Assembly (NCBI GenBank): GCA_022562915.1
Contig: JADFOJ010000033.1
Coordinates: 1 to 35,611 of the forward strand
Direction: 5' to 3'
Length of the DNA stretch: 35,611 nt
From: Planctomycetota bacterium
Lineage (GTDB): Bacteria > Planctomycetota > Phycisphaerae > Phycisphaerales > SM1A02
Shown: in pieces, positions 1 to 15,418 of the stretch
How positions within the stretch are numbered: the first letter of the stretch is position 1
Layout of the letters: every line of letters begins with the position of its first letter
Position numbers and translations under genes: made by a program
The notes under the pieces: generated by a model
Told to the model about the DNA's origin: nothing
Seen by the model: only the letters and a program-made list of their open reading frames with translations
Database searches by the model: none

Positions 1-350
1 GCGGTGAGAAGAAGCGTAGCGAGGTCTTCCAGAGGGCCGTGCTGGCGCCGACGCTGTGCATCATGGACGAGACGGACTCCGGGCTCGACATCGACGCTCT
101 CAAGACCGTCGCCAAGGGCATCAATGCGCTGCGCAGCACCGACCGCGCGTTCATCATCGTCACCCATTACCAGCGCCTGCTCGACCACGTCGTTCCGGAC
201 TTCGTCCACGTCCTGATGGACGGGCGCATCGTCCGGTCCGGCGGCAAGGAGTTGGCGCTGGAACTGGAGGATCACGGCTACACCGACGTCCAGAAGGACA
301 ATCCCGTACCCGAATCGGTCGCCTCACGCCGACGGACGGTGCTCTCGTGA
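1..350 (+). CDS. sufC: SufC, Fe-S assembly ATPase (C-terminal part, 5' end outside window)
   Basis: This is the end of the ABC-type ATPase of the SUF iron-sulfur cluster assembly complex SufBCD, which works in the cytoplasm. The reading frame enters the window at base 3. The visible part starts just after the ABC signature, with the typical SufC string [10 protein letters not shown], then Walker B plus D-loop ([16 protein letters not shown]) and the H-loop histidine ([10 protein letters not shown]). The C-terminal SufC hallmark [20 protein letters not shown] is intact. The stop TGA overlaps the GTG start of sufD in a GTGA junction, so the two are translationally coupled. Roughly 115 of about 250 residues are visible. 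sufB is not seen and could lie upstream of the window. Confidence 0.95.
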
Positions 351-1711: not shown

Positions 1712-2973
1712 CCACGGCGTCCGGACCGACGCCGCCGGCAACCAGGACGGCCGCACCGTACGACGTGCAGCGGATTCGGGAGGACTTTCCCATCCTCGCC
1801 CGTGAGATCAACGGTGAGCCGCTGGTCTACCTGGACAATGCCGCCACCGCGCAGAAGCCCGACGCGGTCATCGACGCGATCTGCGGGTATTACCGTACGG
1901 CCAACGCGAACATTCATCGCGGTGTCCACAGGCTGAGCGTCGAGGCTACCAAGGCGTACGAGGGAGCCCGCTGCACCGTGCAGCGGTTCCTCGGGGCGCG
2001 CCGACCGGAGGAGATCGTCTTCGTTCGCAGCGCGACCGAGGCGATCAATCTCGTCGCCCAGGCATACGCCCGACCGAGGCTCGCCGCCGGCGACGAGATC
2101 CTGATCACGACCATGGAGCACCACTCCAACATCGTGCCGTGGCAGATCGTGTGCGAGCAGACCGGGGCCGTGCTGCGGGTGGCGCCGATCACCGACGCCG
2201 GCGAGCTCGAAATCGACGAGTTCGAGAAGCTGCTGGGCCCGCGGACCCGGCTGGTCGCGGTCACCCACATCTCCAACGCGCTGGGCACGGTCAACCCGGT
2301 CGCGAAGCTGGTCGAGCTGGCCCACCGCCATGGGGCCGTGGTGCTCATCGACGGCGCCCAGGCGGCGCCGCACCTGCCGATCGACGTGACGGCACTGGGT
2401 TGCGATTTCTACGCGATCACCGGCCACAAGATGTTCGGCCCCACGGGTGTCGGCGCCCTGTACGGCCGCTACGAACTGCTCGACGCCATGGAGCCGTACC
2501 AGGGCGGCGGCGAGATGATCCTCTCGGTGTCGTTCGAGAAGACGACGTACAACCACGTGCCGCACAAGTTCGAGGCGGGAACGCCCAACATCGCCGGGGT
2601 CATCGGGATGGGGGCCGCGGTGGACTATCTCAACGACATAGGGCTGAATCGCATCGGGACGTACGAGCAGGGGTTGCTCGCGTACGCCACCGAGGCGATC
2701 AGCCGGATCCCGGGCGTGAGGCTGTTCGGCACCGCCGCGCACAAGGCCGCGGTGCTGTCGTTCAACATCGGCGACGTACATCCCCACGACGCCGGGACGA
2801 TCCTCGACCAGCAGGGCATCGCCGTGCGGACCGGCCACCACTGCGCCCAGCCGGTCATGGAGCGTTTCGGGATCACCGCGACGGTCCGCGCATCGATCGC
2901 CCTCTACAACACGCACGCCGAAATCGACCGGCTCGCGGCCGCGGTCGCGACTGTCCGGGAGGTCTTCGCGTGA
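1708..2973 (+). CDS. sufS: SufS, cysteine desulfurase
   Basis: PLP-dependent class II cysteine desulfurase that takes sulfur from cysteine as a persulfide for cluster assembly. It has 421 residues. Visible marks: the SufS N-terminal block YLDNAATAQKP, the HxxSN motif EHHSNIVPW (about residues 137-145), the PLP aspartate in VVLIDGAQAAPH (about 212-222), the Schiff-base lysine K241 in ITGHKMFGPTG, and the active cysteine C379 in RTGHHCAQP. The short cysteine loop fits type II (SufS) rather than IscS/NifS. It begins in an ATGA overlap with sufD and ends in a TGATG overlap with sufU, its expected sulfur acceptor. About 20 residues at the N-terminus (Thr/Pro/Ala-rich) precede the conserved core and look disordered. 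Confidence 0.95.
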   Translation: MTTASGPTPPATRTAAPYDVQRIREDFPILAREINGEPLVYLDNAATAQKPDAVIDAICGYYRTANANIHRGVHRLSVEATKAYEGARCTVQRFLGARRPEEIVFVRSATEAINLVAQAYARPRLAAGDEILITTMEHHSNIVPWQIVCEQTGAVLRVAPITDAGELEIDEFEKLLGPRTRLVAVTHISNALGTVNPVAKLVELAHRHGAVVLIDGAQAAPHLPIDVTALGCDFYAITGHKMFGPTGVGALYGRYELLDAMEPYQGGGEMILSVSFEKTTYNHVPHKFEAGTPNIAGVIGMGAAVDYLNDIGLNRIGTYEQGLLAYATEAISRIPGVRLFGTAAHKAAVLSFNIGDVHPHDAGTILDQQGIAVRTGHHCAQPVMERFGITATVRASIALYNTHAEIDRLAAAVATVREVFA

Positions 2974-3428
2974 TGTTCGATCTTTCTGACCTGTACCAGG
3001 AACTCATCCTCGATCACAACCGCAGTCCGCGCAACCGGCGCCGGATCGAGCACGCCGGCTGCCGGGCGGAGGGCTACAACCCGCTGTGCGGTGATCGGAT
3101 CACGGTGTACCTTTCGATCGGCGGGGACGTGATCGAGGAGGCCGCCTTCGAGGGCACGGGCTGCGCCATCTCGACCGCCGCTGCGTCGATGATGACCGAG
3201 GCCGTCAAGGGCATGAGCGTTGCCGAGGCCACGGCGCTGTTCGAACGTTTTCGCGCGATGGTCACGGCTGACGAAGACCGCGTTGAGGCCGACGGGGCGT
3301 CCATGGGCAAGCTCGGCGCTTTCGCCGGGGTGCGCCGCTTCCCGGCCAGGGTCAAGTGCGCGACGCTGGCCTGGCACACGCTCCGCGCGGCCATCGCCGG
3401 CGACCATGCCAGCGTGACCACGGAATGA
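2973..3428 (+). CDS. sufU: SufU, zinc-dependent sulfurtransferase
   Basis: SufU accepts persulfide sulfur from SufS. The 151-residue product has the IscU-like fold signature with the three cysteines and one aspartate of the SufU zinc site: C41 and D43 in NPLCGDRITVY, C66 in GTGCAISTAAASMM, and C128 in ARVKCATLAWHTL. The insert between the second and third cysteine (around residues 85-105) is typical of SufU and lacking in IscU. The start is fixed by the TGATG junction with sufS. The stop overlaps the next start (ATGA). Pairing sufS-sufU places this operon in the SufU-type branch (Firmicutes, Actinobacteria and others) rather than the SufE type. Confidence 0.93.
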   Translation: MFDLSDLYQELILDHNRSPRNRRRIEHAGCRAEGYNPLCGDRITVYLSIGGDVIEEAAFEGTGCAISTAAASMMTEAVKGMSVAEATALFERFRAMVTADEDRVEADGASMGKLGAFAGVRRFPARVKCATLAWHTLRAAIAGDHASVTTE

Positions 3429-3757
3429 CCGGCCCACTGGACAGTCTCAGGGCGCAGGCCACCGAGGCCGAGGTCGTCGAGGTCCTCAAGACGATCCGCG
3501 ACCCGGAGCTGCCCGTCAGCATCTGGGACATGGGGCTGATCTACGGCATCGACGTGAGTCCCGAGGACGAGATCACGATCCGCATGACGCTGACCACGCC
3601 CTCGTGCCCGGTCGCCGAGACGCTGCCCCCGGAAGTCGAGCAGAAGGTCGCCGCGATCCACGGCGTCAAGAGCTGCAGTGTCCAGATCGTCTGGGAGCCT
3701 CCGTGGACGGCGGACCGCATGACGGATGCGGCCCGGCTCGAAACCGGGTTGATGTAG
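3425..3757 (+). CDS. sufT: SufT-like protein, MIP18/DUF59 family
   Basis: A 110-residue single-domain MIP18 (DUF59) protein. Family members (SufT, PaaD-like, eukaryotic CIA2) help mature Fe-S proteins. Visible marks: VVEVLKTIRDPELPVSIWDM with the conserved DPE motif at about residues 29-31, then DMGLIYGIDV, LTTPSCPVAETLP with the conserved cysteine, and WEPPWT near the end. The C-terminus ARLETGLM is close to the usual family ending, so the gene appears complete. It starts in an ATGA overlap with sufU, making it the last gene of the operon. Its stop codon TAG (3755-3757) lies inside the left arm of a 36-bp perfect inverted repeat, see the next entry. Placement at the end of sufCDSU supports the SufT name over PaaD. 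Confidence 0.88.
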   Translation: MTGPLDSLRAQATEAEVVEVLKTIRDPELPVSIWDMGLIYGIDVSPEDEITIRMTLTTPSCPVAETLPPEVEQKVAAIHGVKSCSVQIVWEPPWTADRMTDAARLETGLM

Positions 3758-3850
3758 AAAATAGACCGGGACTAATTTCCAGCCGGTGGCCTACCACAAC
3801 GCGGTGCCGGCAGCCTGGAAATTAGTCCCGGTCTATTTTCTACATCAACC
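3747..3850. repeat. 36-bp perfect inverted repeat, REP/MITE-like hairpin at the end of the suf operon
   Basis: Bases 3747-3782 are the exact reverse complement of 3815-3850, with a 32-base loop (3783-3814). The arms are AT-richer than the surroundings and carry the core AAAATAGACCGGGACTAATT. The left arm covers the last two sense codons and the stop of the sufT-like gene. Such a structure would end transcription or protect mRNA 3' ends. Perfect arms of this length with a gene-end location suggest a recently arrived non-autonomous element (REP moved by a tyrosine transposase, or MITE). No transposase is next to it, so mobility is inferred only. Confidence 0.9.
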
Positions 3851-4051
3851 GTGGAGCGACGTTCGAAGACACGGGCGAGCAAGCTCGACCGTGCCACCCG
3901 GCGACGAGAGATCACAGCGGCACAGGTACCTTAAAAACTTTTTTCCGGTCCGCAATACACTGGCGGGCCGGCGTCCGGGCCCTTCGGCCGGTCATGATCT
4001 CACCCTCGCCCGCGGCGTTTTGCCCCGCACCCGCCGGTACGTTGTGCGGCG
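3851..4051 (+). promoter_or_regulatory. Gap before the ubiquitin-like cluster: probable promoter and 5' leader hairpin
   Basis: This 201-base gap separates the suf operon from the ubiquitin-like cluster and must hold the cluster promoter if the upstream hairpin terminates. An A/T tract TTAAAAACTTTTTT (3931-3944) is followed by TACACT (3956-3961), a weak candidate -10; no convincing -35 at standard spacing is seen. Directly before the start codon, CCGCAC (4025-4030) can pair with GTGCGG (4044-4049), a small hairpin where the ribosome binding site should be; no good Shine-Dalgarno is visible for the first gene. Both points are tentative. Confidence 0.3.
3885..3899 (+). repeat. Dispersed repeat copy TCGACCGTGCCACCC
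   Basis: The 15-base string TCGACCGTGCCACCC occurs here, again at 23691-23705, and as its exact reverse complement at 23593-23607. The similarity extends: GTGGAGCGACGT at 3851-3862 is the reverse complement of 23648-23659, and both places have ACGGGCGA between the two blocks. This looks like a short intergenic repeat family in this genome. Confidence 0.65.
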
Positions 4052-4645
4052 ATGATTCAGATCGCGTCAGCCCTGAGACAGTTCCACCTGATCGACGCCG
4101 AGGCGGACGAACACGGCACGCACGAGGTGCTGCGGGTCCCGGAGGGCCTGTCGTACCTGGTCACCGGCGACGCTTCGGGCGGGCCGCGACTCGTCGCCGA
4201 TTCCGAAGCCGCCTCCGTGGCCAAGGTCACCCGCGGCGTGATCCTGGAGCCCATCTCCCGGCAGAGGGAACTGGTCCTGCTCATGGTCCTGTCGCCGGGG
4301 CAGCAGCCGGTGCTGATCAACGGCGTGACCGCCGGTCGCGTGGCGACGCTTCGCGAGGGTGACGTGGTTCAGCTCGACGGCGGCCGGCAGACCTTCCACG
4401 TCGCGCTGCACCTGCACTCGGTGATCGGGCGGGCCCCGCAGGAGCGGGCCGACGAATTGTGCCTGACGTGTCACCGTGCCCTCGACAATGACATCGTGCT
4501 CATCTGCAGTGTCTGCGGCAAGGCACAGCACTGTGACACCAGCGGCGACGCGGGCGCACGCAACTGCATCCTGTCGAGCACGTGCCCGTCGTGCAGGACC
4601 ACGATTCACACCGACGGGCACACCGCGCTGCCGGAGGATCTCTGA
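4052..4645 (+). CDS. FHA-like domain plus RING-like zinc domain protein (candidate E3-type component)
   Basis: A 197-residue protein of two parts. Residues about 25-125 end in the string VLINGVTAGR..LREGDVVQLDGG, which looks like the closing strands of an FHA-type (phosphopeptide-binding) beta sandwich. Residues 135-185 hold a cysteine-rich domain: C137xxC140, C152xxC155, H160-C161, C172, C178xxC181. This spacing can bind two zinc ions like the binuclear treble clef of RING fingers; bacterial RING-like proteins are known from comparative genomics of ubiquitin-like systems. It is the first gene of the cluster and is followed by E1 (one base gap) and E2, the classical RING partner. An E3-like or adaptor role is inferred from that context. 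Other zinc-ribbon folds remain possible. Confidence 0.6.
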   Translation: MIQIASALRQFHLIDAEADEHGTHEVLRVPEGLSYLVTGDASGGPRLVADSEAASVAKVTRGVILEPISRQRELVLLMVLSPGQQPVLINGVTAGRVATLREGDVVQLDGGRQTFHVALHLHSVIGRAPQERADELCLTCHRALDNDIVLICSVCGKAQHCDTSGDAGARNCILSSTCPSCRTTIHTDGHTALPEDL

Positions 4646-4646
4646 G

Positions 4647-5927
4647 ATGGTCTGGTCCGCGCCGGGATTCCGCGAGATCACGATCGATTCGACGGCCGGT
4701 GGCCATGACAGGGCCGGCCTGGTCGGCGCGGTCGACCGAATGCCCGATTTTCCAGGTCTCACCGGCGACGCCCGGGCCATCCTGGCCGGGACGAGGTTGC
4801 TGGTCGTGGGTACCGGGTCCGTCGGTGGCCGGATTGCGGAGCACGCGGCGCGGTGCCGTGTCGGCGAGATCGGCCTGGTCGATCCGAAGACCTTCTCCGC
4901 GAACTTCGACACCCAGGTGACCCGTTCTCGATCGGACATCGGGCGACCCAAGGCGGCCCAGGTGGGCGCGTGGGCGAAGACCATCTCTCCGTCGTCGATC
5001 GTCCGGGTCTTCGACGGATCCGTCCAGGCGTTGTCGTGGCTCGACCTCGATGACTACGACATCGTCGTCGCCTCGACGGACAACCTGCTGGCGGAGGTGT
5101 ATCTCGGCGAGACGTGCATGGCATTGGGGCTGCCACTGCTGTACGCGTCGGTTCACGGCCCGACGCTCTGCAGCCAGGTGCGGGTCTTCATGAACCGCAA
5201 CGGCGATTCACCGTGCCCCTCCTGCGGCTACAGCCGCGCCGAGCGCGAGCAGTTGTCCAGCGGCACCAGGTTCAGCTGCGACCCCGCCGCCGGTGGCGAA
5301 GCGGACCTCGACGGCCCGCCGACGGTCAGCGTAAGCCCGCTGTGCAGCCTCGCCGCCGACATGGCGATGCTGGAGGTTCTCCGGATGAGGCTGCGGCTCG
5401 GCTCGGCGCCGTGCGACTGCGTGCGGGAACTCAACGGCTATACGGGGGCCTCGGTCACGACACCGCTGTCGCGCCGGGCCGCGTGCGGGGTCGACCACAC
5501 GGTCCTGGAGCGCGTGTACCTCGACCGACCCCTCGGCGAGTGCACCTTGCGTGACTGCGCCGAGGCCGCGGGGGTGACGGGCGACGAGGGGATCGCCCGC
5601 ACCTCTTTCGCGGTCGACGACAGTCTCTTTGCCCCGGTTCTCACCTGCACGGCGTGCGAAGCCTCGCACGAGCACAACGGTTTCGTGGACCGTCGTCGAG
5701 GAACACTGCCCCGCCCGTGCCGCGCGTGCGGCCACCATGGCCTGGCACCCCACCCGTTCCGCTCGTTCGATCGGCTCATACCCGCCCGCGCCGGCGGCCT
5801 GCTGCCGCACCTGGACGTTCCGCTGCGAGCCCTCGGCGCCGACGGCCGGGGCGTCGTGGTCCGGTACGGCCGCAAGGCCGTTCTTCTCCGTTGGAAATCC
5901 GACCGCACACGGGACACGACATCATGA
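4647..5927 (+). CDS. E1-like ThiF-family activating enzyme with extra zinc-binding C-terminal region
   Basis: A 426-residue ThiF/MoeB/E1 superfamily protein expected to adenylate the C-terminus of a ubiquitin-like protein. The Rossmann nucleotide loop is GTGSVGG (55-61), followed by the acidic GLVDP (D79), the E1 residues N86, Q90 and R94, and IGRPKA (99-104), which matches the E1 arginine/lysine motif. VASTDN (141-146) matches the conserved Dx(N) after the crossover loop. Cysteines C190xxC193 and C256xC258 may form the structural zinc site; C233 in SPLCSLAADMA is a candidate thioester cysteine. After residue 300 comes an additional part with C334xxC337 and C358xxC361, a second zinc knuckle pair unusual for MoeB/ThiF. 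The ATG at 4647 follows GGAGG with good spacing. It is translationally coupled to the E2 gene (ATGA). Confidence 0.85.
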   Translation: MVWSAPGFREITIDSTAGGHDRAGLVGAVDRMPDFPGLTGDARAILAGTRLLVVGTGSVGGRIAEHAARCRVGEIGLVDPKTFSANFDTQVTRSRSDIGRPKAAQVGAWAKTISPSSIVRVFDGSVQALSWLDLDDYDIVVASTDNLLAEVYLGETCMALGLPLLYASVHGPTLCSQVRVFMNRNGDSPCPSCGYSRAEREQLSSGTRFSCDPAAGGEADLDGPPTVSVSPLCSLAADMAMLEVLRMRLRLGSAPCDCVRELNGYTGASVTTPLSRRAACGVDHTVLERVYLDRPLGECTLRDCAEAAGVTGDEGIARTSFAVDDSLFAPVLTCTACEASHEHNGFVDRRRGTLPRPCRACGHHGLAPHPFRSFDRLIPARAGGLLPHLDVPLRALGADGRGVVVRYGRKAVLLRWKSDRTRDTTS

Positions 5928-6580
5928 CTACGACAGCAACGCCGCGGCCCCCCGGGCTCGGCTCACTCGACCGGATCACGCTCACCCCGGCCAACGAGCA
6001 CATGCTCGCGGTGGCGGCATCCTCGATGCAGGGCGTCGACCCGTGGCCGGCCCGCAAGATGTCCGAGGCGAGGCAACTGCTCGCCCTTGGCCAGCTCGCC
6101 GGCTCGAAGCGAATGCAGGTTCGCGAACTGGACCTCGAACAGGACCTTCGCGCGACCGTCTGGTTCGACGTTCCGGTCGCCATGACGCCCGACTCCACCG
6201 GCGCCCTGCGGATCCAACAGGGTGCGGTGGTCGGCATCATCTATCCGCGGGTGATCCTGAGCATTCCGCTGCCCGGGTACGCGTTGACGAGCCTCGTGGA
6301 GCCGGAGGCGGGCGCGTTCTACCCGAACCTCGGATCGAGCCGCGGGCAGCGGATGTGTCTCGGCGCGCAGCTGCCGGTGGGGATCCCGGTCGTCGAGCTG
6401 GCGCTCGGAGCATGGTCATTGCTGGCGATGCAGACGGTGATGCTGGACGCAGGAGATTCCGCAGGCGTCATGCACATGGCGGCGGCCGAGTACTGGCAGG
6501 CGAACCGCGACCGGATGCCGCTCACCCGCGAGCCGTTGCTCCGTCCCGACCGGCTGCCTGGGGAACCACGATGCAGTTGA
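5924..6580 (+). CDS. E2-like (UBC-fold) ubiquitin-conjugating enzyme homologue
   Basis: A 218-residue protein with an apparent E2 fold. The stretch at 126-151 reads EPEAGAFYPNL..RGQRMCLGAQLP, matching the E2 active-site pattern in which an HPN motif precedes the catalytic cysteine (here YPN at 133-135 and C145 in MCLG). Strands before it (RATVWFDVP, VVGIIYPRVILSIPLPGY) match the E2 beta meander with the P-x-x-Y/F-P type turn. The helix after the cysteine (VVELALGAWSLLAMQ) matches the usual E2 helix. Histidine of HPN is replaced by tyrosine, as seen in other bacterial E2-like proteins. The start sits in an ATGA overlap with E1. Function: would accept the modifier from E1 by transthioesterification. 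The last residues overlap the next gene by 10 bases. Confidence 0.78.
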   Translation: MTTTATPRPPGLGSLDRITLTPANEHMLAVAASSMQGVDPWPARKMSEARQLLALGQLAGSKRMQVRELDLEQDLRATVWFDVPVAMTPDSTGALRIQQGAVVGIIYPRVILSIPLPGYALTSLVEPEAGAFYPNLGSSRGQRMCLGAQLPVGIPVVELALGAWSLLAMQTVMLDAGDSAGVMHMAAAEYWQANRDRMPLTREPLLRPDRLPGEPRCS

Positions 6581-7341
6581 CCGCGCGGACCATTGCCCGA
6601 ACCAACGACCGGCTTGCCGAGCTGGGACTGCAGCCGGATCGACCGAACGCCTGGTCCGGAGAGGACCTTCACCTTGCGATCGATGGCGGCTGGCTTTGCT
6701 TCAGCACGAAGCGATCGCCGCCGGCCGCGTCAGGAGGCCTCGATGCGCCGGGGCTCTGGAAACAGTCGACGGGCGGCGGCCGCGTCTTCGAGGCGCCGCT
6801 GGGAGCGATCATGCAGCGGATCGACGACACCGGGTTCGACGACCACGCTGAGGAAGCCGTGATCGCGATGGTGGCGACCTGGGCCGTGCAGACGCTCGAC
6901 GGCACCGGGGCCAGGGGATGGGCGCCGCCGGCGGTCGAACGGCTCGACGAACTGCTCCCGCCGGCGGCACTGTCGTTCCAGAGCGGCTCGCTGCTGGAAC
7001 CGTGCACGCTGGTGAGCCTCGAACACACGCTCCGCGTGCACGTCTGTCTGGGTCGGATCGACCCGGCGCTCTCCGATGCGCGCCGGCGCTGGGTGGATCG
7101 CGTGGTGGCCGACGCGAGGCGGCTGCGGCTGGTTCGTGTCGAACTGCGCGCTCCCGGCGAGGCGCCCGCCATGATCGAGGCCGCGATCGACCTGACCGGT
7201 GCGCCGGCGGCGATCGGCGAGGCGATGCTGCCGCTCGCCGTGGACGCGCTGCGTCACTGCTTCGAATTCCTCGCACTGACCGCAACCATCGTCGGCGACG
7301 CACAGTGCGCCAGCCGGGTGCTCGACACCGTGCCGAGCTGA
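6571..7341 (+). CDS. Unknown protein embedded in the ubiquitin-like cluster
   Basis: A 256-residue protein I cannot assign to a family. It is predicted soluble, with no signal peptide or membrane segment and with no cysteine pairs suggesting zinc. The second half (about 150-250) looks like an alpha/beta module with a final long hydrophobic helix region (MLPLAVDALRHCFEFLALTA). It begins 10 bases inside the end of the E2 gene, with GGGG upstream of ATG, and ends 44 bases before the ubiquitin-like gene. The tight position between E2 and modifier implies a role in the same pathway, for example a substrate adaptor or chaperone; this is context only. Confidence 0.75.
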   Translation: MQLTARTIARTNDRLAELGLQPDRPNAWSGEDLHLAIDGGWLCFSTKRSPPAASGGLDAPGLWKQSTGGGRVFEAPLGAIMQRIDDTGFDDHAEEAVIAMVATWAVQTLDGTGARGWAPPAVERLDELLPPAALSFQSGSLLEPCTLVSLEHTLRVHVCLGRIDPALSDARRRWVDRVVADARRLRLVRVELRAPGEAPAMIEAAIDLTGAPAAIGEAMLPLAVDALRHCFEFLALTATIVGDAQCASRVLDTVPS

Positions 7342-7385
7342 AACATCTCTTCTCGAAAACCCTTTCCGGAAAGGACCGCTCAACC

Positions 7386-7691
7386 ATGATCACAACCTCA
7401 CAAGACCTTCTCTCAAGGACCGCACCGGGAAAGGTTCGCCTGCGGATCCGCGACATCACCGCCACGCACGAGGCGGAACTGGTGATCGACGCCGACCTGC
7501 GCGTCGGTGCCGTCGCCAGGACGGTCGCGGCCCGGATGTCGTTGCCGGCGGATACGACCTGGGCACTTCGTTCTGACACCACCGCGGCGTTCCTGGACGA
7601 CGACGCAACCATCGGCGAGGCGGTCGGCGTCGACGGCGACACGGAAGTCTTCCTCACCGCCACGCCCCGGGCACACCTCGGCGCCGGATGA
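7386..7691 (+). CDS. Ubiquitin-like beta-grasp protein 1, C-terminal Gly-Ala-Gly
   Basis: A 101-residue small protein with the length and pattern of a ubiquitin-like beta-grasp fold: strand KVRLRIRDI (16-24), strand AELVIDADL, helix RVGAVARTVAARM (39-51), strand TTWALRSD, a loop AAFLDDDATIGEAVG (67-81, like the L-x-D-x-x-T-I-x-E segment of ubiquitin-like proteins), and strand TEVFLTATP (86-94). The chain ends PRAHLGAG, leaving a terminal glycine without processing, as needed for E1 adenylation. A strong Shine-Dalgarno (GGAAAGGA) precedes the ATG, fitting higher output than its coupled neighbours. The stop overlaps the start of the JAB gene (ATGA). YukD/EsaB-type ubiquitin-like proteins are the closest pattern I recognise; the E1/E2/JAB context supports a conjugated modifier. 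Confidence 0.75.
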   Translation: MITTSQDLLSRTAPGKVRLRIRDITATHEAELVIDADLRVGAVARTVAARMSLPADTTWALRSDTTAAFLDDDATIGEAVGVDGDTEVFLTATPRAHLGAG

Positions 7692-8821
7692 GCGAGACGA
7701 TCCTCCAACAGGACGTGCTCGACGCGGGCCTCGAGGCATTCGACGAGGACTGGACGCTGACCATGGTGCTTCGTGCCACGACGGACGGTCCGCCGTTGGC
7801 CCGGCAGCGCGTCAGCGAGGCTGACCTCGCCGAGGCACGGAGCGAAGCGTGGCTCAACGGCTTCCTGCGGCGCGGTCAACCCGACCTGCCGCTGGAGGCC
7901 GTGACCACGCGGCTCGCGCCCGTCGTGAAGAAGGGCCGGTGCCTCGGATTCGTGCTGAGAGCCGAGGGCCCCGGGACCGACGCCTCCGTACACACGTTCG
8001 GCGTGTCGTGTCTGGCGCCGGCGGCGCACCAGGTGTCGAAGAGACTGGTCACCGACGGGCTGCTGCGCGAAGGCGACGCCTACGTGTACGAGTTGCAGCC
8101 GCAGCGGGCGGGCGAGACGGACATGGACCCGTTGCCGGCGGCAGCGGCGCGGCACGATTCCGGCGGCATGCAGATCAAGACGACGACGACCGCACTGCGG
8201 TACGCGACACGGCCGTTGGCGCAGCTTCGGCTCACGGCCAGGACCGCCGGCGAGATCGATGACGCCGTCCTGCCCGTGTTCTTCACTGAATCGGCTCACA
8301 AGAAGTCGCGGGACTTCGCCCGCACGGGCGCCGACGACAACCCTCCGGTCGAGACGGGCTCAATCCTGATCGGCGAACTGGGTGTCTGCCCGGACAGCGG
8401 CGAAATGTCCGTCACCGTGCTCGACGCGATCGAGGTCGCCGACGCCGAGCAACGGGAGTTCTCCCTCATTCCGTCTTCGAGGACCTGGAGCCGCGTCCAG
8501 GCGGTTCTGGCCCGGCTCACCGGGGGCGATCCCTGCGGAACGACGCGTCTCGTAGGCCAGTCACACGGACATAATTTCCCCCTGGACGGTGAGCCGTGTG
8601 CCCTGTGCGCGACGGCCAGGGAGTGTGGCCGAACGACCGTGTTCGTCTCCGCGGCTGACCGCAGCTTCATGCGGACCGTCTTCGCGGGGCAGCCGTTCGC
8701 CCTCTGCTGGATCGCCGGCAGCAACGCGCGAGGTGAGGAGGTCGCGACGCTCTTCACCTTGCGTGCCGGCGTTCTCAAGCCGCGGGGCTACTACATCATC
8801 GAGGATCTCGTCCGCTCCTGA
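7688..8821 (+). CDS. JAB/MPN-type isopeptidase domain with unknown N-terminal domain and cysteine-bearing insert
   Basis: A 377-residue protein. The C-terminal part (about 190-345) has a JAB/JAMM metallopeptidase layout: the catalytic glutamate E222 in PPVETGSILIGEL, the zinc histidines H293 and H295 in GQSHGHNF, and S321-x-x-D324 in FVSAADRSF. Between HxH and SxxD there is an insert of about 25 residues with C304xxC307 and C313, instead of the usual 7 to 10 residues. The insert could bind a metal or form a lid. The N-terminal about 160 residues (WTLTMVLRATTDGPPLARQ...) are a separate domain I do not recognise. Expected role: removing or maturing the ubiquitin-like modifier encoded just upstream, with which it overlaps (ATGA). 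Catalytic residues seem complete, but activity is inferred. Confidence 0.68.
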   Translation: MSETILQQDVLDAGLEAFDEDWTLTMVLRATTDGPPLARQRVSEADLAEARSEAWLNGFLRRGQPDLPLEAVTTRLAPVVKKGRCLGFVLRAEGPGTDASVHTFGVSCLAPAAHQVSKRLVTDGLLREGDAYVYELQPQRAGETDMDPLPAAAARHDSGGMQIKTTTTALRYATRPLAQLRLTARTAGEIDDAVLPVFFTESAHKKSRDFARTGADDNPPVETGSILIGELGVCPDSGEMSVTVLDAIEVADAEQREFSLIPSSRTWSRVQAVLARLTGGDPCGTTRLVGQSHGHNFPLDGEPCALCATARECGRTTVFVSAADRSFMRTVFAGQPFALCWIAGSNARGEEVATLFTLRAGVLKPRGYYIIEDLVRS

Positions 8822-8854
8822 CACACCCGGGCCACTTGCACAAGGAAGACGACC

Positions 8855-10615
8855 GTGCCGACAGTGAAGAAGATACAGACCTCCGTCATGCTGCTCACCG
8901 ACAAGGTGCCGCTGGCGCATCGACGGATACTGCTGGCCGACATCTGCCAGAGCGACTCGGAGGAAGCCGCGAAGCTGCTCGACAGGCTGCTCAAGGCGGC
9001 GGCACAGGGAGACGGCGGCGAGGATCACTTCAAGGAAAAGACGAAGGAACTGGAGGCACTCATCGAGGGTCTCGAGAACGGCCCCCAGCGGTCCGCGGTG
9101 TTCCTCAACCTGGTGCCGGCCAACGGCGCGCCGCTCACCCGGGCGCTCGTGAAGCTCTCCGACGGGACCCCGGCGTACCCGATCGTGCCCGACGCCGTGC
9201 TGGGCGAGTCGCTCAAGCGGGGCGACAGCGTTCTGCTCAGCGCCCGGGGCGAAGCGCTGCTGTCGCGGGACGCCGGAAGCATCGACGTGGGAGAGGAAGC
9301 ACGGCTGGAGCGGTGGATGGGCGATCGAGTCGAGGTGAGCCTGCGAACGGGCGACGAGCGGCACCTGCTGCACGTCGCCGAGACCCTGCGAGCCCGACTC
9401 GAGGCGGACGAGGTTCCGAAGGGCACGGCGTTGCTCGTGTGCCTTCGCCGGGCGATCGCCTTCGACATGATCCCCTCGCCCATCGACCCGTTGAGCGGGT
9501 TCCGGTTCCTTTCAAGGGAGCCCGTCCCCGATGTCATCGCCGCGCGCGACATCGGCGACCCGCCGGAGTTCATCGAACGCATCGCCGAGGTCTGCCGGCA
9601 GGAGATGACCTCGCCCGAACGTCGCCGTCGATACGGGCTTCGACGGTCGATCACCATGCTCCTGACCGGCGTCAGCGGCAGCGGCAAGACACTGAGCCTC
9701 AACGCCGCCATCCGGAGGATCTACGAGGTCATGTCCGACGTCACCGGCCTGCCCATCGGGGCACTGCCTCCGCGAGTGATCCGCCTGAAGATGTCCAAAC
9801 TCTTGTCGCAGTGGCTGGGCAAGTCCGACAAGAACGCCGACAGGCTCGTCGATGAGATCACCGAGCTGGCCGGGCACACCGTCACCGACGCCAGCGGGCG
9901 CACCGTCGAGCTTCCGGTGATCGTGGTCCTCGAGGAGTTCGACGGCATCGCCCGCCGCCGCGGTCTGGACCACGACGGGATCTACGATCGCATCCAGACG
10001 ACGCTGCTGCAGCGGCTGGACCACACGGCCAACGCGGCGCTGCGTGACTCGCTGATCGTCATGTTCGCGACGACCAACGTGCCGCACCTGCTCGACCCCG
10101 CGTGGCTCCGCCGCGTCGGCGGACGAACCTGCACCTTCGGGCGGCTGCGCCGCCGGGCCTTTGCCGCCGTGCTCGACAAGCAACTGCGGGATCGCCCGCT
10201 CGCCGGCGACAACGGGACCGCCCCGGACGAACTCAAGCGCCGCCTTGTACGCAACGTCACGGGCGCACTGTTCAGCCCCAACGGCGCGGCACGGCCGCTG
10301 ATCGAGATCCAGTTCGCGGGAACGACCACGCCGTGCTTCAAGCACGGTCGAGACTTCCTGACCGGCAGCGTCGTGGACCGGGCCGTGCAGCAGGCGGCGG
10401 AGGCCGCCTGCCAGGCCGAGCAAGCAGGGGCCGACACCCCGGGCATCACCATCCACGGTCTGCTGGATGCGATCGAGGACCAGGTCCGGGCCGTGGTCGA
10501 GTCCGTCACCCCCGCCAACGTGGCGGAGTTCGTCGACGTGCCCGACGGCACGAGGGTCACCAACACCCGACGTATCGAGGCACAGGCGATCCCCGCACGC
10601 GACATCCTGCGCTGA
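8855..10615 (+). CDS. AAA ATPase, ARC/Mpa/Cdc48-like unfoldase candidate
   Basis: A 586-residue AAA protein. Residues 57-75 are charged and could be a short coiled coil. Residues 80-175 look like two OB-type beta modules (SAVFLNLVP..., SVLLSARGEALLS), the arrangement found in ARC/Mpa proteasomal ATPases. The AAA core spans about 225-440: RDIGDPPEFIERI, Walker A GVSGSGKT (272-279), Walker B VIVVLEEFDGIARRRG (355-370), sensor 1 ATTNVPHLLDP (405-414) and the arginine-finger region LRRVGGR (418-424). The Walker B aspartate position is glutamate (E360-E361). The C-terminus ARDILR lacks the GQYL-type tail that docks Mpa/ARC to a 20S proteasome, and no protease gene is nearby. Start is GTG at 8855 after AAGGAAG. 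It sits between the two ubiquitin-like modules, which suggests it unfolds modified proteins or remodels the machinery. Confidence 0.75.
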   Translation: MPTVKKIQTSVMLLTDKVPLAHRRILLADICQSDSEEAAKLLDRLLKAAAQGDGGEDHFKEKTKELEALIEGLENGPQRSAVFLNLVPANGAPLTRALVKLSDGTPAYPIVPDAVLGESLKRGDSVLLSARGEALLSRDAGSIDVGEEARLERWMGDRVEVSLRTGDERHLLHVAETLRARLEADEVPKGTALLVCLRRAIAFDMIPSPIDPLSGFRFLSREPVPDVIAARDIGDPPEFIERIAEVCRQEMTSPERRRRYGLRRSITMLLTGVSGSGKTLSLNAAIRRIYEVMSDVTGLPIGALPPRVIRLKMSKLLSQWLGKSDKNADRLVDEITELAGHTVTDASGRTVELPVIVVLEEFDGIARRRGLDHDGIYDRIQTTLLQRLDHTANAALRDSLIVMFATTNVPHLLDPAWLRRVGGRTCTFGRLRRRAFAAVLDKQLRDRPLAGDNGTAPDELKRRLVRNVTGALFSPNGAARPLIEIQFAGTTTPCFKHGRDFLTGSVVDRAVQQAAEAACQAEQAGADTPGITIHGLLDAIEDQVRAVVESVTPANVAEFVDVPDGTRVTNTRRIEAQAIPARDILR

Positions 10616-10645
10616 AAGCCGACAAGACAAGAAAGGAACACCGAG

Positions 10646-10969
10646 ATGACCGAACTCATCAGAGCACAGACGCCTCAGGAGCGGGCCGGTGGAGCACCCG
10701 ATGACTTCGGCGGCGTCTGGCCGAACCAGGAACCTGCCGGCCTCGCCCAGGTGAGCACCGGTCTCTATACCGAGCACCTTCCGGTGGTGGGCAGGACGAT
10801 CATGGACATCCGCCGGACATTCGCCGACCGCCTGGACATCGACCCCAGCGCCCAGCCCGTCATCGACGGGCAACTCGTTGCGGACGAATCCACCCGCGTC
10901 GAGCCGGGGCAACGACTTGCGTTCGTCCGGCACGCCGGCGAAAAGGGAGTCGACCTCACCCCGGAGTGA
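10646..10969 (+). CDS. Ubiquitin-like protein 2, PRTRC system protein C-like
   Basis: A 107-residue protein. The core (about 42-100) has beta-grasp spacing: strand near EHLPVVG, helix IMDIRRTFADRLDI, strand AQPVIDGQLV, and the last strand RLAFVRHAGEKG. The FxRxxGxKG ending is the pattern of the ubiquitin-like protein C of PRTRC (ParB-related, ThiF-related) cassettes, where a GTKG-like end is common. Here six extra residues (VDLTPE) follow the glycine at 101, so exposing a C-terminal glycine would need cleavage, and two JAB peptidases are nearby. The N-terminal 40 residues are polar and probably disordered. A good Shine-Dalgarno (AAAGGA) precedes the ATG. It overlaps the next gene (GTGA). Confidence 0.65.
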   Translation: MTELIRAQTPQERAGGAPDDFGGVWPNQEPAGLAQVSTGLYTEHLPVVGRTIMDIRRTFADRLDIDPSAQPVIDGQLVADESTRVEPGQRLAFVRHAGEKGVDLTPE

Positions 10970-11859
10970 CCATCATGCCGCATGACACGCTCACGATCAG
11001 GGGAAGGAACGTGCAGGCGCGGTCGCCGGAAGGCGTCACCGCGACGCTGGGCGTCGCCGAGTTCGTCAGGAAGCTCAGCCCACCCACGATGAACTGCTGC
11101 GGGCTGATCCTTCCGCGCGGCGTCAGCACCTTCTTCTCGACGGACTCGACGACGATCTTCTTCTGGGAGCTTCCGCCGGCCGTTCACCACGTCCGGTGGA
11201 TCAGCGCTGATTCGGAAGTGCCCTACAGGATGCCCGGCGCCAAGGTGCTCTACGAGGACCGGCGGATCGCTCTGCCCTACATCGTCATCGTTGCCGTGTT
11301 CGTCAAGGATCCTGCCGGCCGGCTGGTGCTGTCGGGCAGGAACGAGGCGTACTTCCGAACGGCGCCGCTGGAGAGTCTCGACGACGAGCTGCTGTTTCCG
11401 TCCCTGCTCAATATCAGCAAGTTCCCCCGGCAGGTTGCCGCGTCCAGGCCGCTGAGCTGGATCTGCACGCAGTACCTGGACCGGGCCACGCTCGCCGCCG
11501 AGCCGGACCTCAACACCCGCATCCGGCAGTCGTTGAAGGCCCTGCGCAGCACCACGCTGGAAGCGGGCTTCAACTACTCCAGCGAGCACCACGAGCTCAC
11601 GAGCTACTGGACGGTCTCGGCGAAGAAAATCCCCCAGGTCGCCGACCTCGACCGGTGGGAGCAGCTCAGCCGGGAGGACCCGCTGTTCACGCTGGAGGTG
11701 CCGTGGCTGCCGGCGAAGTGGCGAGGCCGAAAAATGACCGTCAGCAGCCTCGTCGAGCGGATCCAGACGCTCTTCTCCGCGCATCGATCGTCCCCGGACT
11801 CCAGCGACGCCCTGGCCCGCATCGTCTTCGAGGCGTCCGCCAACGGGGAGGCGTCGTGA
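10966..11859 (+). CDS. PRTRC system protein B-like, E2-related protein
   Basis: A 297-residue protein. The pattern LPPAVHHVRW (69-78), a strand ALPYIVIVAVF (102-112), then RNEAYFRTAP (125-134), LFPSLLNIS (143-151) and WICTQYLD (165-172) follows the layout of PRTRC protein B / prokaryotic E2 family proteins, where a strand is followed by an L-Y-x-A-P-F-x-N-V-like motif and a cysteine. C167 in WICTQYL is the only cysteine in the equivalent region, but I cannot show it is catalytic. The start GTG at 10966 was chosen for the GTGA overlap with the preceding stop; an ATG at 10975 is a fair alternative. The order C-B-A-ThiF in this part of the cluster equals the order known for PRTRC cassettes, which supports the call. 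Confidence 0.6.
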   Translation: MTIMPHDTLTIRGRNVQARSPEGVTATLGVAEFVRKLSPPTMNCCGLILPRGVSTFFSTDSTTIFFWELPPAVHHVRWISADSEVPYRMPGAKVLYEDRRIALPYIVIVAVFVKDPAGRLVLSGRNEAYFRTAPLESLDDELLFPSLLNISKFPRQVAASRPLSWICTQYLDRATLAAEPDLNTRIRQSLKALRSTTLEAGFNYSSEHHELTSYWTVSAKKIPQVADLDRWEQLSREDPLFTLEVPWLPAKWRGRKMTVSSLVERIQTLFSAHRSSPDSSDALARIVFEASANGEAS

Positions 11860-12608
11860 CCGATTCGCGTCCACCGGAGCGACTGCTGACGAACATCTAC
11901 CTCAAGACGCGCGGCGACGAACCTCCGCCGGCTGACGAGAGTTGTTATTACCTTCTCACCGGCAGCGGCCTGTTCATCGGGCGCAACCAGCCGCACATGC
12001 GGAGCCTGGTACCCGCCCGCAACTGGCCGGGTGAGCTGGAGCCCCAGGAGCCCTTGCTCACGCTTCGCTATCCGAAGGTTCCGGCGGAGCTGCTCGGGCG
12101 CATCGTGGGCTTCTTCTGGACGGTCGCACAACGCCACGGAGCCGAGGCCGCGATCCTGCTCGCCTTCGACGACGCGTCCCAGCGCATCACGCCGATCGTA
12201 CCCGACCAGGTCGGCACGATCGGCTGCGGCTGGCGCGGCGAGCCGTACCCGATCGGTCTTCACTACGAGATTCCCATTCACCTCGATGACGGCCTGAGGA
12301 TCATCGGGGACATCCACAGCCACGCGTTCGAGCCGGCGTATGCGTCGTCCATCGACATACATGACGAGGTGCATCGGCCGGGTCTGCACGTCGTCGCGGG
12401 GCGTCTTGACCGTGATCCACCCGACTGGCACGCCGAATACGTCGTGGACGGCACGCGTTTTCAATACGCGCCGGAGTCGGTTCTCGACCTGGAGGGCTAT
12501 GCCGGTCGCACCGTCCCCGCGGAGGCCGAGTGGCTCGATCGGCTGGAGGTCATTCCCGCCGCCGAGTATGCCCGAGAGCGGGCATCCAACGGAAACCGTA
12601 CGCCGTGA
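11856..12608 (+). CDS. PRTRC system protein A-like, JAB/JAMM metallopeptidase
   Basis: A 250-residue protein. The C-terminal part is a JAB domain with a full JAMM motif: E97 in GAEAAILLAFD, H154-x-H156 in IIGDIHSHAFEPAYAS, and S164-x-x-D167 followed by IHDE, then LHVVAGRLDRDPPDWHAEYVVDG, a pattern typical for PRTRC protein A and the related MPN+ family. The N-terminal 90 residues (YYLLTGSGLFIGRNQPHMRS, ...PKVPAELLGRI) form the small leader domain that precedes JAB in that family. It would cut ubiquitin-like protein 2 or its conjugates; the substrate is inferred from context. The start GTG sits in a GTGA overlap with the previous stop, and the end overlaps the ThiF-like gene the same way. Confidence 0.75.
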   Translation: MTDSRPPERLLTNIYLKTRGDEPPPADESCYYLLTGSGLFIGRNQPHMRSLVPARNWPGELEPQEPLLTLRYPKVPAELLGRIVGFFWTVAQRHGAEAAILLAFDDASQRITPIVPDQVGTIGCGWRGEPYPIGLHYEIPIHLDDGLRIIGDIHSHAFEPAYASSIDIHDEVHRPGLHVVAGRLDRDPPDWHAEYVVDGTRFQYAPESVLDLEGYAGRTVPAEAEWLDRLEVIPAAEYARERASNGNRTP

Positions 12609-13366
12609 AGAACTCCGTACTGCCGAACCTTTCGGGACGGATCACCTGCCGCATCATCGGTGTCGGCGGCATCGGTCAGATCGTCGCGACGTACCTCGTC
12701 CGGTACCTGGCGAGTCTCGCGGTCCCGGCGAGGGTGGTCCTGATCGACGGTGACGAGTTCGAGCACGGCAACGAGACACGCATGAGCGTGCAGCGGCTCT
12801 TCGAGAACAAGGCGGCGGCGCTCGCTGAGACGCTGGGGGCATCCTGCCGCGGGACGCAGGTGACGATCCTGCCGGTCCGGGAGTATGTCCGGCCGGACAA
12901 CCTCGCCAGGCTCGTACACTCCGGCCGCGGCGAGTCGGTGTTGATGTGCGTGGACAACCACGCCACCCGCAAGCTCGTCGGGGATCACTGCGAGCGGCTC
13001 GACGACGTGTGCCTGATCAGCGGCGGCAACGACGGGGTCGGCCCCGACTCGTCCGGCTACGTCCGGCAGGGCACCGCCGGCAACGTCCAGGTTCTCCTGC
13101 GGCGCGACGGCCGAAGCCTCACCGCGGGGCTCGGCGAACACCACCCGGAGATCGCCACGCCGAAGGATGTCATCCCGGACGACGCCGGCTGCGACGCTTC
13201 GCTTGGCTCGGCGCCGCAGATCCTTTTCACCAACCTGACCGCGGCGGGCTGCATGCTGAACACCTGGTGGCTGTATGCCCGCGGCGAACTGCACTACTCG
13301 GAACTGGTCTTCAATATCAGCCACGGACGTACGGCGCCGCTGATCGAGATGGCGACCGTCGTGTGA
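12605..13366 (+). CDS. PRTRC-like ThiF/E1 family protein
   Basis: A 253-residue minimal E1 domain. Nucleotide loop IIGVGGIGQIVATYLVRYL (glycines at 19-24), acidic VVLIDGDEFEHGNETRM (43-60) with the E1 N56 and R59, then CVDNHATRK (115-123), which is the crossover motif with D-N in PRTRC ThiF proteins. Unlike the first E1 of this cluster there are no paired zinc cysteines, and it lacks the extra C-terminal region. C196 and C216 are candidate thioester positions, unproven. The start GTG overlaps the JAB stop (GTGA). It is the last gene of the cluster; the following gene converges after four bases. Adenylating ubiquitin-like protein 2 is the likely role by linkage with the C/B/A-like genes. Confidence 0.78.
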   Translation: MKNSVLPNLSGRITCRIIGVGGIGQIVATYLVRYLASLAVPARVVLIDGDEFEHGNETRMSVQRLFENKAAALAETLGASCRGTQVTILPVREYVRPDNLARLVHSGRGESVLMCVDNHATRKLVGDHCERLDDVCLISGGNDGVGPDSSGYVRQGTAGNVQVLLRRDGRSLTAGLGEHHPEIATPKDVIPDDAGCDASLGSAPQILFTNLTAAGCMLNTWWLYARGELHYSELVFNISHGRTAPLIEMATVV

Positions 13367-13370
13367 ACGG

Positions 13371-14021
13371 TCAACTGACGTTCTCGAAGATCCGGCCCTC
13401 GACGTACAATCTAAGCCGGTACCCGCCACCACCGGATTCGATCAGGTTGGGGTTGATGTGCGCCTTGATGAACAGGGCGCGGAGTTGCTGAACGAGGTTC
13501 TGCAGATTGCCGGTGCTGATGCGCTGCCCGCTGAGCTCCTCGATCGCCTCGATCAATTCGGCCTTCGTTTTGAAGGGGATGACCCCGTTCGTCGGCATGT
13601 TGACCCGCGACACCTTTGCCCCCAACGCGAGCAGCAGTTGGCGGAGCCGTTGCCTGTTCCGGAGCGGTGCGGGGAGCTCGTTGTTCTCAACGTGGACGAG
13701 CATGAAACCATCCCGGTCGTGTTCGATGATCACGTTGTGGACGGGCTCCACCACGTCGCTGGAGTTCGACGTCCGGTCCGCCTGACGCTGTGTCACGGGG
13801 ACGACCTTCGCGGCGGCCGGTCGCGTGGGCTTGCCATTCTTCCTGCGTTGGGCCTCGGCGTGTTGCACCTTCTCCTGCCTTTGTTGCTTCTCCCACTCCG
13901 AGAGCCCGGCGGTGACGATCTCGACCGCCCACGCCTGCTTCGCAATCGCGGTCCCGACGATCTCGAGGTCCTTGCGCGTCTTCTTGATCCACTGCAGGAA
14001 CTCACGGTCACTGTTGGTCAT
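13371..14021 (-). CDS. Winged-helix-like protein, unknown, convergent with the cluster
   Basis: A 216-residue protein without recognised full-length family. Its N-terminal 85 residues are highly charged and helix-rich (EKQQRQEKVQHAEAQRRK, likely coiled coil). The C-terminal end, LRALFIKAHINPNLIESG.GGYRLRLYV (about 180-210), has the look of the recognition helix and wing of an OmpR-type trans_reg_C winged helix (pattern LR..L......LI....GGYRL). There is no receiver domain. It faces the ubiquitin-like cluster tail-to-tail with four bases between and is divergent from the next gene, sharing its 278-base promoter gap. A DNA-binding regulator is plausible but unproven. The ribosome site (GAGGC) is weak. 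Confidence 0.65.
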   Translation of the reverse strand: MTNSDREFLQWIKKTRKDLEIVGTAIAKQAWAVEIVTAGLSEWEKQQRQEKVQHAEAQRRKNGKPTRPAAAKVVPVTQRQADRTSNSSDVVEPVHNVIIEHDRDGFMLVHVENNELPAPLRNRQRLRQLLLALGAKVSRVNMPTNGVIPFKTKAELIEAIEELSGQRISTGNLQNLVQQLRALFIKAHINPNLIESGGGGYRLRLYVEGRIFENVS

Positions 14022-14299: not shown

Positions 14300-15418
14300 A
14301 TGGCACCCCCGAACCCGAAGCAGCCCGGTATGGCCGCCGAAACCCGTCTGAAGCATCTCCTGGACAAGGCTGGATTCCCCGCTCGCGGCCTGCTCGAACG
14401 GATAGCCAGGGAGACGGGCCTCGCGCGGCACACCGTCCGCAAGTTCTACTACAACGAGGCTTCCGTCTTCTCGCTGGAGACGGTCGGCAGGATCTGCGCG
14501 TGGCTTGCGCAGAACGGCCTCGGCGACGGTCTTCCCGGCACCCTGTTCGCCATACGACCGCCTGCGATGATGACTGCCCTGATGGAACCCGGTCACGTCA
14601 CGATGTGCGTGGGCGTCTACCAGGGGCGCGGCCGCCCCGGCTTCGCCCGGAGCTCCATCGCGAGAGACGACTTTTCCGTGGCGGCGCGCCTCGTCGAACG
14701 ACTGTCGCGGTCGTCTCAGCGCACCGTCCGCATCAGCTACATCCATGTTCCGTCGCATGTGGCTCTCGACGGGCATACGCTCGATCGATCCGTGCTCGAA
14801 CGTGATCAGGCAGAAGCAAGACGCATCTTTGAGAAGGCACGTCGCAACACGACCAGCGGAACGTCAGTCATGATCGGTTCGCAGCGAGCCAACTACGTGG
14901 TTGAATGTTTTGTCGCGGAACTGTGGAACGCCGAGGCTTTCTCTGCCGAGAACAGTCCGGTACCGTTCTATCTAAAATACCCGGAACCGGCACGGTCGTC
15001 AAGCTGCTTTGGCGGCGATACGGCGCCGGTGACGAACGGAACCGCTGCGCCCGACGGGATTTATTTTCGTCATCGTGGCAAGAAAGATTGGGAGTTTTTT
15101 CCGTCGGAGCCGCGTCAGAGCGCCACGGGCATGGTCATCGTGCGCCGTGATCCGGGCCTCGGTCGAGTGGAGCTCGCCGTCTTCGGTCTATCAGGGATCG
15201 CCACCAGCGCGATGGGGACGCTCCTGTGCCGCATGCCGGACAGGTTCCTGCCCAACGGGCCGGTGAGGGCGGGAATCCAGGTCGGCGTGTACGTCTGCGG
15301 ATTCGATATTTCGGCGATGACCTCCGACGAGCAGGACATCGACACGATCACGATCGGCACCCCCAGGATCGTCGAACTCGACGTGGACGTCCGCGGAAGG
15401 CGACGGCCCGCCGCGTGA
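14300..15418 (+). CDS. Helix-turn-helix protein with large unknown C-terminal domain
   Basis: A 372-residue protein. Residues about 14-68 (LKHLLDKAGF...LERIARETGLARHTVRKFYY...VGRICAWL) look like an XRE/Cro-type helix-turn-helix. The remaining 300 residues are not recognised; they contain strings such as TMCVGVYQGRG, MIGSQRANYVVECFVAELW (about 188-206) and VPFYLKYPEP. The region with GSQRANYV and FYLKYPEP could be a sensor or ligand-binding fold and resembles nothing I can name. It has a strong RBS and its own AT-rich promoter region, with a palindrome that may be its operator. Possible role: regulator of the adjacent ubiquitin-like cluster, or independent; only position supports this. Confidence 0.7.
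   Translation: MAPPNPKQPGMAAETRLKHLLDKAGFPARGLLERIARETGLARHTVRKFYYNEASVFSLETVGRICAWLAQNGLGDGLPGTLFAIRPPAMMTALMEPGHVTMCVGVYQGRGRPGFARSSIARDDFSVAARLVERLSRSSQRTVRISYIHVPSHVALDGHTLDRSVLERDQAEARRIFEKARRNTTSGTSVMIGSQRANYVVECFVAELWNAEAFSAENSPVPFYLKYPEPARSSSCFGGDTAPVTNGTAAPDGIYFRHRGKKDWEFFPSEPRQSATGMVIVRRDPGLGRVELAVFGLSGIATSAMGTLLCRMPDRFLPNGPVRAGIQVGVYVCGFDISAMTSDEQDIDTITIGTPRIVELDVDVRGRRRPAA

Follow-up and report, generated by a model that had tools for sequence, protein, structure and literature searches.

Organization of the gene cluster

The 35,611-nt stretch of DNA from a bacterium of the phylum Planctomycetota analyzed here (contig JADFOJ010000033.1; hereafter designated the window) contains, at positions 4052–13366, a cluster of eleven open reading frames on the plus strand (g1–g11) predicted to encode two sets of ubiquitin-like (Ubl) conjugation proteins and an AAA ATPase. 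The first six (hereafter designated the core) comprise a predicted RING-type zinc protein and candidate E3 (g1, 197 aa, 4052–4645), an E1-like ThiF protein with zinc-ribbon-like cysteines at its C-terminus (g2, 426 aa, 4647–5927), a predicted E2-like protein (g3, 218 aa, 5924–6580), a protein with a predicted YbjN/type III secretion chaperone-like fold (g4, 256 aa, 6571–7341), the predicted first modifier Ubl-1 (g5, 101 aa, 7386–7691), and a JAB/JAMM-type metallopeptidase (g6, 377 aa, 7688–8821). They are followed by an ARC/Mpa-like AAA ATPase (g7, 583 aa, 8864–10615) and by the second half of the cluster, consisting of the predicted second modifier Ubl-2 (g8, 107 aa, 10646–10969), a PRTRC-B-like protein as candidate E2 (g9, 297 aa, 10966–11859), a PRTRC-A-like JAB peptidase (g10, 250 aa, 11856–12608), and a PRTRC-ThiF-like activating enzyme (g11, 253 aa, 12605–13366).

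All eleven frames were found where a preliminary description of this DNA had placed them, and its account of coupled genes on one strand is borne out by the junction distances, which from g1 to g11 are 1, −4, −10, 44, −4, 42, 30, −4, −4, and −4 bp; thus, six of the ten junctions overlap by 4–10 bases, and gaps of 1, 30, 42, and 44 bases separate the genes at the other four. For g2, the start at 4647 is likelier than the mechanically assigned 4476, and g7 starts at either 8864 or 8855. The G+C content of the cluster is close to that of its flanks, no sigma-70-like promoter was seen in 3600–13700, and no tRNA gene was found in the whole window.

Recurrence of the cluster in cellular genomes

A search of a species-level genome collection with a profile of 31 ATPases yielded 11 loci, of which two (L012 and L013) were dropped as relatives, their match being confined to part of the AAA region. 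The nine true relatives belong to Deltaproteobacteria (2), Verrucomicrobia/Verrucomicrobiota/Verrucomicrobiia (4), Gemmatimonadetes (1), Pirellulaceae (1), and Planctomycetota (1). Five of them (L003, L006, L008, L009, and L011) hold all eleven genes in order, with Ubl-2 and g9 forming a single frame in L006; L005 also has the eleven genes in order, g6 being shrunk to a 49-aa C-terminal remnant (4099–4245), L007 has ten genes and a g1-like frame, and the clusters of L004 and L010 are cut off by contig ends. In a further, divergent locus (L027), hidden Markov models (HMMs) detected all eleven genes, with an ATPase 26% identical. The two halves therefore adjoin elsewhere in the same order, namely, in Deltaproteobacteria, Verrucomicrobia, Gemmatimonadetes, and Planctomycetota, and because this order recurs in other phyla, the eleven-gene arrangement is not a chance juxtaposition.

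Within the phylum of the window, the ATPase was detected at 1e-30 in 7 of 392 genomes, four of which are long-form, namely, the genome of the window, the divergent G351, and two in which the locus is divided between two contigs (G116 and G200). The g9 profile matched exactly the same four of the 392 genomes, all of them ATPase carriers. Among 61 relatives searched, two gave a match: the genome of the window itself and one further genome, weakly, at 20.7 bits. In three other phyla, the ATPase was found in 1 of 288 genomes at 1e-80 and in 1 of 345 and 1 of 200 at 1e-30, each time in the seed genome itself. The cluster thus recurs across phyla, though rarely.

The ARC/Mpa-like ATPase

Both the proteasomal-ATPase OB domain (PF16450) and the AAA domain (PF00004) of g7 score above the Pfam cut-offs. 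In a profile search of the PDB, the closest solved relatives are Mpa/ARC (E 1.7e-37), followed by VCP-like ATPases (9e-27); the score against the NCBIfam pup_AAA model (TIGR03689) is 88.8 bits, below its cut-off of 504.75. Walker A, Walker B, and the W-x-G pore residues are invariant in all 31 ATPases of the alignment, and the ATPase of L007, which lies outside this alignment, has W-Y-S at the pore. The W-x-G pore motif fits substrate threading, which is established for this ATPase class. Judged by its domains and profile matches, g7 is an ARC/Mpa-like AAA ATPase. As a separate observation, three long-form loci have an AAA-like protein of about 440–515 aa with an apparently degenerate Walker A motif between the ATPase and Ubl-2 (L007, 11875–13095; L008, 7593–8918; L025, 8038–9363), which is absent from the window.

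Conserved residues in the core

Six cysteines of g1 (Cys137, 140, 152, 172, 178, and 181) are invariant in all eight aligned sequences, an alignment that omits the g1-like frames of L007 and L024. The top PDB profile matches of g1 are PHD/RING fingers, weak at E 0.0015–0.012, and a Pfam scan, the only library used for this protein, gave nothing above cut-off (Prok-RING_1, just 11 bits); an FHA domain previously read into its N-terminal part was not confirmed. The ThiF adenylation domain of an E1 is present in g2 (Pfam ThiF, 82.1 bits, significant), and the Cys of its SPLC motif is kept in 9 of 9 sequences. In g3, Cys145 within a CLG motif is invariant in 13 of 13 sequences, including those of the Pup-form loci described below, and Asn135 is nearly invariant; this protein has no Pfam or NCBIfam match above cut-off, no credible PDB match, and no fold match. 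Ubl-1 ends in ..HLG, ..RLG, or HLG plus 2–3 residues in 10 of 12 sequences, the exceptions being HLA and KAA. The JAMM motif is found in g6, with Glu222, His293, His295, Ser321, and Asp324 invariant in 14 of 14 aligned sequences (the L005 remnant left out) and weak profile matches to Rpn11/BRCC36 (E about 1). None of g4, g5, and g6 has a Pfam or NCBIfam match above cut-off.

The second half and its relationship to PRTRC

Ubl-2 carries a GEKG motif in 8 of 9 aligned sequences. Among these eight cellular proteins, seven run on for 1–10 residues after the motif (six in the window) and one (L025) stops there. Moreover, among the best 120 of 458 homologues, 14 join Ubl-2 and g9 in one protein, and all 14 have GEKG at the junction. 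Such tails and junctions are expected of a processed precursor and suggest that Ubl-2 is perhaps made as one. Conserved catalytic residues are also seen in the other proteins of this half: Cys167 of g9 is invariant (9 of 9 in one alignment and 10 of 10 in another), as are Glu97, His154, Ser155, His156, Ser164, and Asp167 of g10 (10 of 10), and g11 matches Pfam ThiF significantly (42.8 bits). Conservation of catalytic residues extends to the two JAB proteins, the two ThiF-type enzymes, and the two E2-like proteins; the E2 and Ubl assignments in both halves are predictions from conserved motifs and gene position.

The relationship to PRTRC cassettes was analyzed by all-against-all hhalign comparison of ten families from the cluster with six PRTRC families of 4–9 sequences, the cassettes being taken from environmental plasmids. 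The order ParB-E-C-F-B-A-ThiF is fully annotated on one of these (L051), and most others have the same order with members unlabelled or missing. Clear matches were obtained between g11 and PRTRC ThiF (99.6% over 236 columns) and between g10 and PRTRC A (98.7%, 176 columns); g2 also matched PRTRC ThiF (96.6%, 128 columns). For g9 with PRTRC B and g8 with PRTRC C, the values were 10.4% and 5.3%, each the top of its row, and the remaining cells did not exceed 1.6%. A g9 profile built from 101 sequences raised the match to PRTRC B to 22.7% (P 9e-4, collinear over 90 columns), which is still weak.

The curated PRTRC definitions are not reached, because g10 and g11 score below the cut-offs and g8 and g9 have no match. 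Thus, g10 gives 24.1 bits against 101.8 for PRTRC_A (TIGR03735) and, with Pfam Prok-JAB, 22.1 bits, just below the cut-off of 25; g11 gives 34.9 bits against 144.75 for PRTRC ThiF (TIGR03736), though this is its best NCBIfam match. Neither g8 nor g9 has any Pfam or NCBIfam match above cut-off, the PRTRC B (Prok-E2_D) and C (Prok_Ub) models included, and the NCBIfam PRTRC B and C families likewise gave no match for nine members each of g9 and g8. The Pfam models Prok-E2_D and Prok_Ub do match a canonical PRTRC cassette. A search of 16 host genomes for PF14460, run without a positive control, gave no match, and no ParB, E, or F gene occurs among the genes of the cluster. The earlier assignment of 10646–13366 as PRTRC-like accordingly holds for the A and ThiF homologues, but not at the level of any curated model or of the accompanying ParB, E, and F genes. 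By sequence comparison, the second half shares with PRTRC its gene order and two clearly homologous proteins of four (A and ThiF), with B and C plausibly homologous.

Loci with Pup-ligase genes after the ATPase

Three other genomes of this phylum (L028–L030) have RING, E1, E2, Ubl, JAB, and ATPase genes by HMM; g4 and g8–g11 were not found by HMM, save for E1 genes cross-matched by the ThiF profile. Directly after the ATPase, each locus has two large proteins, all six of which are Pfam Pup_ligase (PF03136; 251–342 bits), and between each pair lies a protein of 64–73 aa ending in GGQ or GGE (3 of 3). A Pfam search at E 1 gave no match for these small proteins, the Pup model included. Adjacency of PafA homologues to Pup is described as the rule in the relevant passages of PMC2588565. 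The second module of these loci is likely, judging from the ligase matches and gene arrangement, a Pup-tagging set. The genome of the window gave no match to Pup_ligase; 3 of the 12 other long-form genomes have one (G351, G430, and G433), outside the cluster stretches examined. Separately, homologous genes transcribed divergently from the Pup-form operons are present in L028 (16130–17437) and L029 (3260–4411).

The second half in phages

Scans of IMG/VR detected five phage contigs carrying the second half or parts of it, two of them together with the ATPase. In L063, the order is ATPase-Ubl2-g9-JAB-ThiF, and on a 45-kb contig, whose two end stretches (L067 and L062) overlap within ThiF, the genes run Ubl2-g9-JAB-ThiF followed by the ATPase; the latter contig also has terminase and portal genes. 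The other three (L064, L065, and L066, the last two near-identical in this region) have Ubl-2, JAB, and, after JAB, two g9-like genes (L064, 11280–12807; L065, 5898–7449; L066, 11094–12618); the stretch examined contains neither an ATPase nor a ThiF gene. Core genes were not found in the phage stretches, which are part of each contig, except for a cross-match of the E1 profile to ThiF. These scans were pattern-limited, the ATPase scan having overlooked the ATPase of L063, which was found through the ThiF scan, so that absences there mean little.

The phage Ubl-2 stops exactly at GEKG on four of the five contigs and ends in AEKGGR on the fifth. The phage copies read retain the JAMM, Walker, and pore residues, and the ThiF motifs are likewise retained in L063 and the g9 Cys in L063 and L067; L064 and L066 align poorly around this residue but hold a Cys. 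A PHROGs scan, which did not include L065, placed replication genes on L064 and L066 and SbcCD-like genes on L063. A protein of PHROG 5931, a family of unknown function, lies close to the Ubl-2 module in L063 (10752–11684) and L066 (13903–14784).

Neighbouring genes

Directly downstream of the cluster, the window encodes on the minus strand a 216-aa protein (13371–14021) with no Pfam match, followed on the plus strand by a helix-turn-helix (HTH) protein (14300–15418), possibly an associated regulator, which matches HTH_26 with 20.6 bits, below the cut-off of 22. Good homologues of this family stand beside the cluster in L003 (3313–4533) and L007 (2374–3615), in both cases upstream and on the opposite strand as possible regulators, and a weak one (25.2 bits) occurs in L024; the divergent genes of L028 and L029 have no match to the profile of this HTH protein. 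Just upstream, the window has apparent SUF iron-sulfur assembly genes (3–3757; NifU_N and FeS_assembly_P by Pfam, others by eye), and a relative 64% identical to the NifU-like protein occurs in the same family.

Proposed function

With a slight preference, we interpret the cluster as a two-tag protein-remodelling operon in which one ARC-like motor serves both tags. The predicted E1-E2-RING relay of g2, g3, and g1 would attach Ubl-1, the PRTRC-like ThiF protein g11 and the E2-like g9 would attach Ubl-2, and the predicted JAB peptidases g6 and g10 would trim or remove the Ubl tags. The g7 ring would likely unfold proteins carrying either tag, probably as a stand-alone remodeller without a 20S proteasome. 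In this scheme, Ubl-2 would mature at GEKG, and g4 may act as a chaperone-like adaptor. The likeliest setting would be conflict with phages, the least certain step of the scheme.

Since the Pup-form loci and the phage forms place different modules beside a related ATPase, one ATPase seems to be served by exchangeable second-tag modules. The preliminary description had placed two modifier sets around one ARC-like ATPase; the two sets do stand together as a unit in other phyla, but the ATPase is not simply a shared middle, as it also occurs with the core and a Pup module and, on two phage contigs, with the second half and no core gene in the stretches examined. We tentatively extend this to a modular unfoldase, in which an ARC-type ring with a Ubl core may take either a pupylation or a Ubl-2 module, phages may have taken the ring together with Ubl-2, and hosts and phages may fight with or over the same machine.

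Pairwise gene distances are correlated for E1 with E2 (r 0.71, P 0.005) and for g9 with either of these two (r 0.67–0.68, P about 0.01). Several points weigh against the two-tag interpretation: the ATPase distances track neither g9 nor g11 and are marginal against g2 and g6, supported groupings differ between modules, and an anti-phage role is suggested by patchiness and phage carriage alone. The disagreement of distances and groupings between modules is consistent with repeated module exchange rather than with one co-inherited unit.

Alternative explanations

As the closest solved relatives of g7, OB region included, are Mpa/ARC, the ATPase might instead feed a compartmental protease (20S or HslV), with the tags marking proteins for degradation, and in one genome (G430) a pair of neighbouring proteasome-family genes shares its contig with Pup ligases. 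However, 9 of the 16 host genomes, which include many drafts, gave no proteasome-family match (PF00227, a count that does not separate HslV from 20S); these are 6 of the 13 long-form genomes and all 3 Pup-form genomes. The window ATPase, which ends in DILR, also lacks a C-terminal hydrophobic-Tyr-X motif; of the others listed, only that of L027 (YFQ) resembles it. Because of the 9 host genomes without a match, degradation by 20S is unlikely as a general output and the motor is probably a stand-alone remodeller; the ubiquitin-proteasome-like degradation proposed earlier loses ground accordingly, and we regard the protease explanation as improbable. Still less credible is a role of the Ubl-2 half as a sulfur-carrier or cofactor module of the ThiS/MoaD type, perhaps tied to the adjacent SUF genes. 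The NCBIfam matches of g11 include the ThiF and MoeB cofactor-synthesis models, genes for NifU-like and FeS-assembly proteins are found directly upstream, and a molybdopterin enzyme is encoded downstream, but the other loci have no SUF match and only L003 has a short molybdopterin-enzyme match, and the second half itself includes a JAB protein and an E2-like protein that bears a Cys, and it adjoins an unfoldase.

The two halves could also be independent systems that are merely linked, the ATPase serving the first only and the PRTRC-like half being a self-sufficient plasmid- or phage-type module. The three loci with core and ATPase but no second half agree with this, as do the ATPase distances given above and the phage contigs L064–L066 with Ubl-2, JAB, and two g9-like genes but no ATPase in the stretch examined. 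On the other hand, this ATPase accompanies the second half on two phage contigs, where the stretches examined contain no core gene, and all four cellular g9 genomes of the 392 hold the ATPase, so that independence appears rather unlikely. A more serious candidate, possible although we do not favour it, is anti-phage defence resembling Bil or CBASS conjugation, with the unfolding of tagged phage proteins as output. The patchy occurrence (1 of 288, 1 of 345, and 1 of 200, seed genomes only, and at most 20.7 bits outside the window genome among the 61 relatives) and the matching half carried by phages are consistent with it, and a CBASS cGAS system uses Ubl-type conjugation against phage, according to the excerpted text of PMC10097602. 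By contrast, PADLOC (g1 being outside the scan) gave generic partial E1-E2 and IetA-type ATPase likeness and no whole system, and the neighbours in the window are SUF, ferritin, and redox genes. The control of phages or mobile elements suggested in the preliminary description has gained circumstantial support from the phage contigs.

The arrangement of these loci makes two ideas testable: that a single unfoldase can read two unrelated tags, and that tagging can serve unfolding without a proteasome. One phage copy, with five genes, offers a compact version for reconstitution.

Comparison with known systems

Each module of the cluster is of a known kind. Like the cluster, the Bil (PMC11354881) and CBASS-type (PMC10097602) systems have E1, E2, and JAB in one operon, Bil also having a Ubl, but as outlined in excerpts of those papers they are without an ARC-like ATPase or a second modifier. 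The FtsH ternary conflict systems, in the portions of PMC7159879 that concern them, combine an AAA ATPase with a full Ubl system including RING, and also show a Ubl-E2 fusion; they differ in having FtsH and vWA rather than ARC, one modifier, and EAD effector domains, with no PRTRC-like or Pup module there. The PRTRC cassette, operon type 6d in the corresponding section of Iyer, Burroughs and Aravind 2006 (PMC1779556), shares with g8–g11 the order Ubl (C), E2-like (B), JAB (A), and ThiF, with A and ThiF as clear homologues. The cluster differs in being without ParB, E, and F, in the weak relationship of B and C, and in scores below the curated cut-offs; moreover, the cassettes compared are plasmid-borne, whereas L003 is a chromosome. 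With ARC/Mpa, g7 shares the proteasomal-ATPase OB and AAA domains and the top solved matches, but it scores far below the family cut-off, has no Pup or 20S genes beside it, and lies in an E1/E2/RING/JAB operon.

The Pup-PafA-Dop system is resembled by L028–L030, where two PF03136 proteins surround a GGQ/GGE-ending protein after a related ATPase; such a module was found neither in the window nor elsewhere in its genome, where the second tag is Ubl-2. Among the matches listed from open-licence PMC papers, none describes, by title or abstract, the core and ATPase with either Pup or Ubl-2, or a phage ATPase with Ubl-2. Pupylation and ubiquitin-like tagging are generally viewed as having been invented separately, each ending at an ATPase of similar type. 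In the loci compared here, what follows the ARC-like ATPase in the operon is either a Pup-ligase module or a second Ubl module, with the upstream Ubl core common to both, and the modular interpretation, if true, would bring ubiquitin-type and Pup-type tagging together on a single motor.

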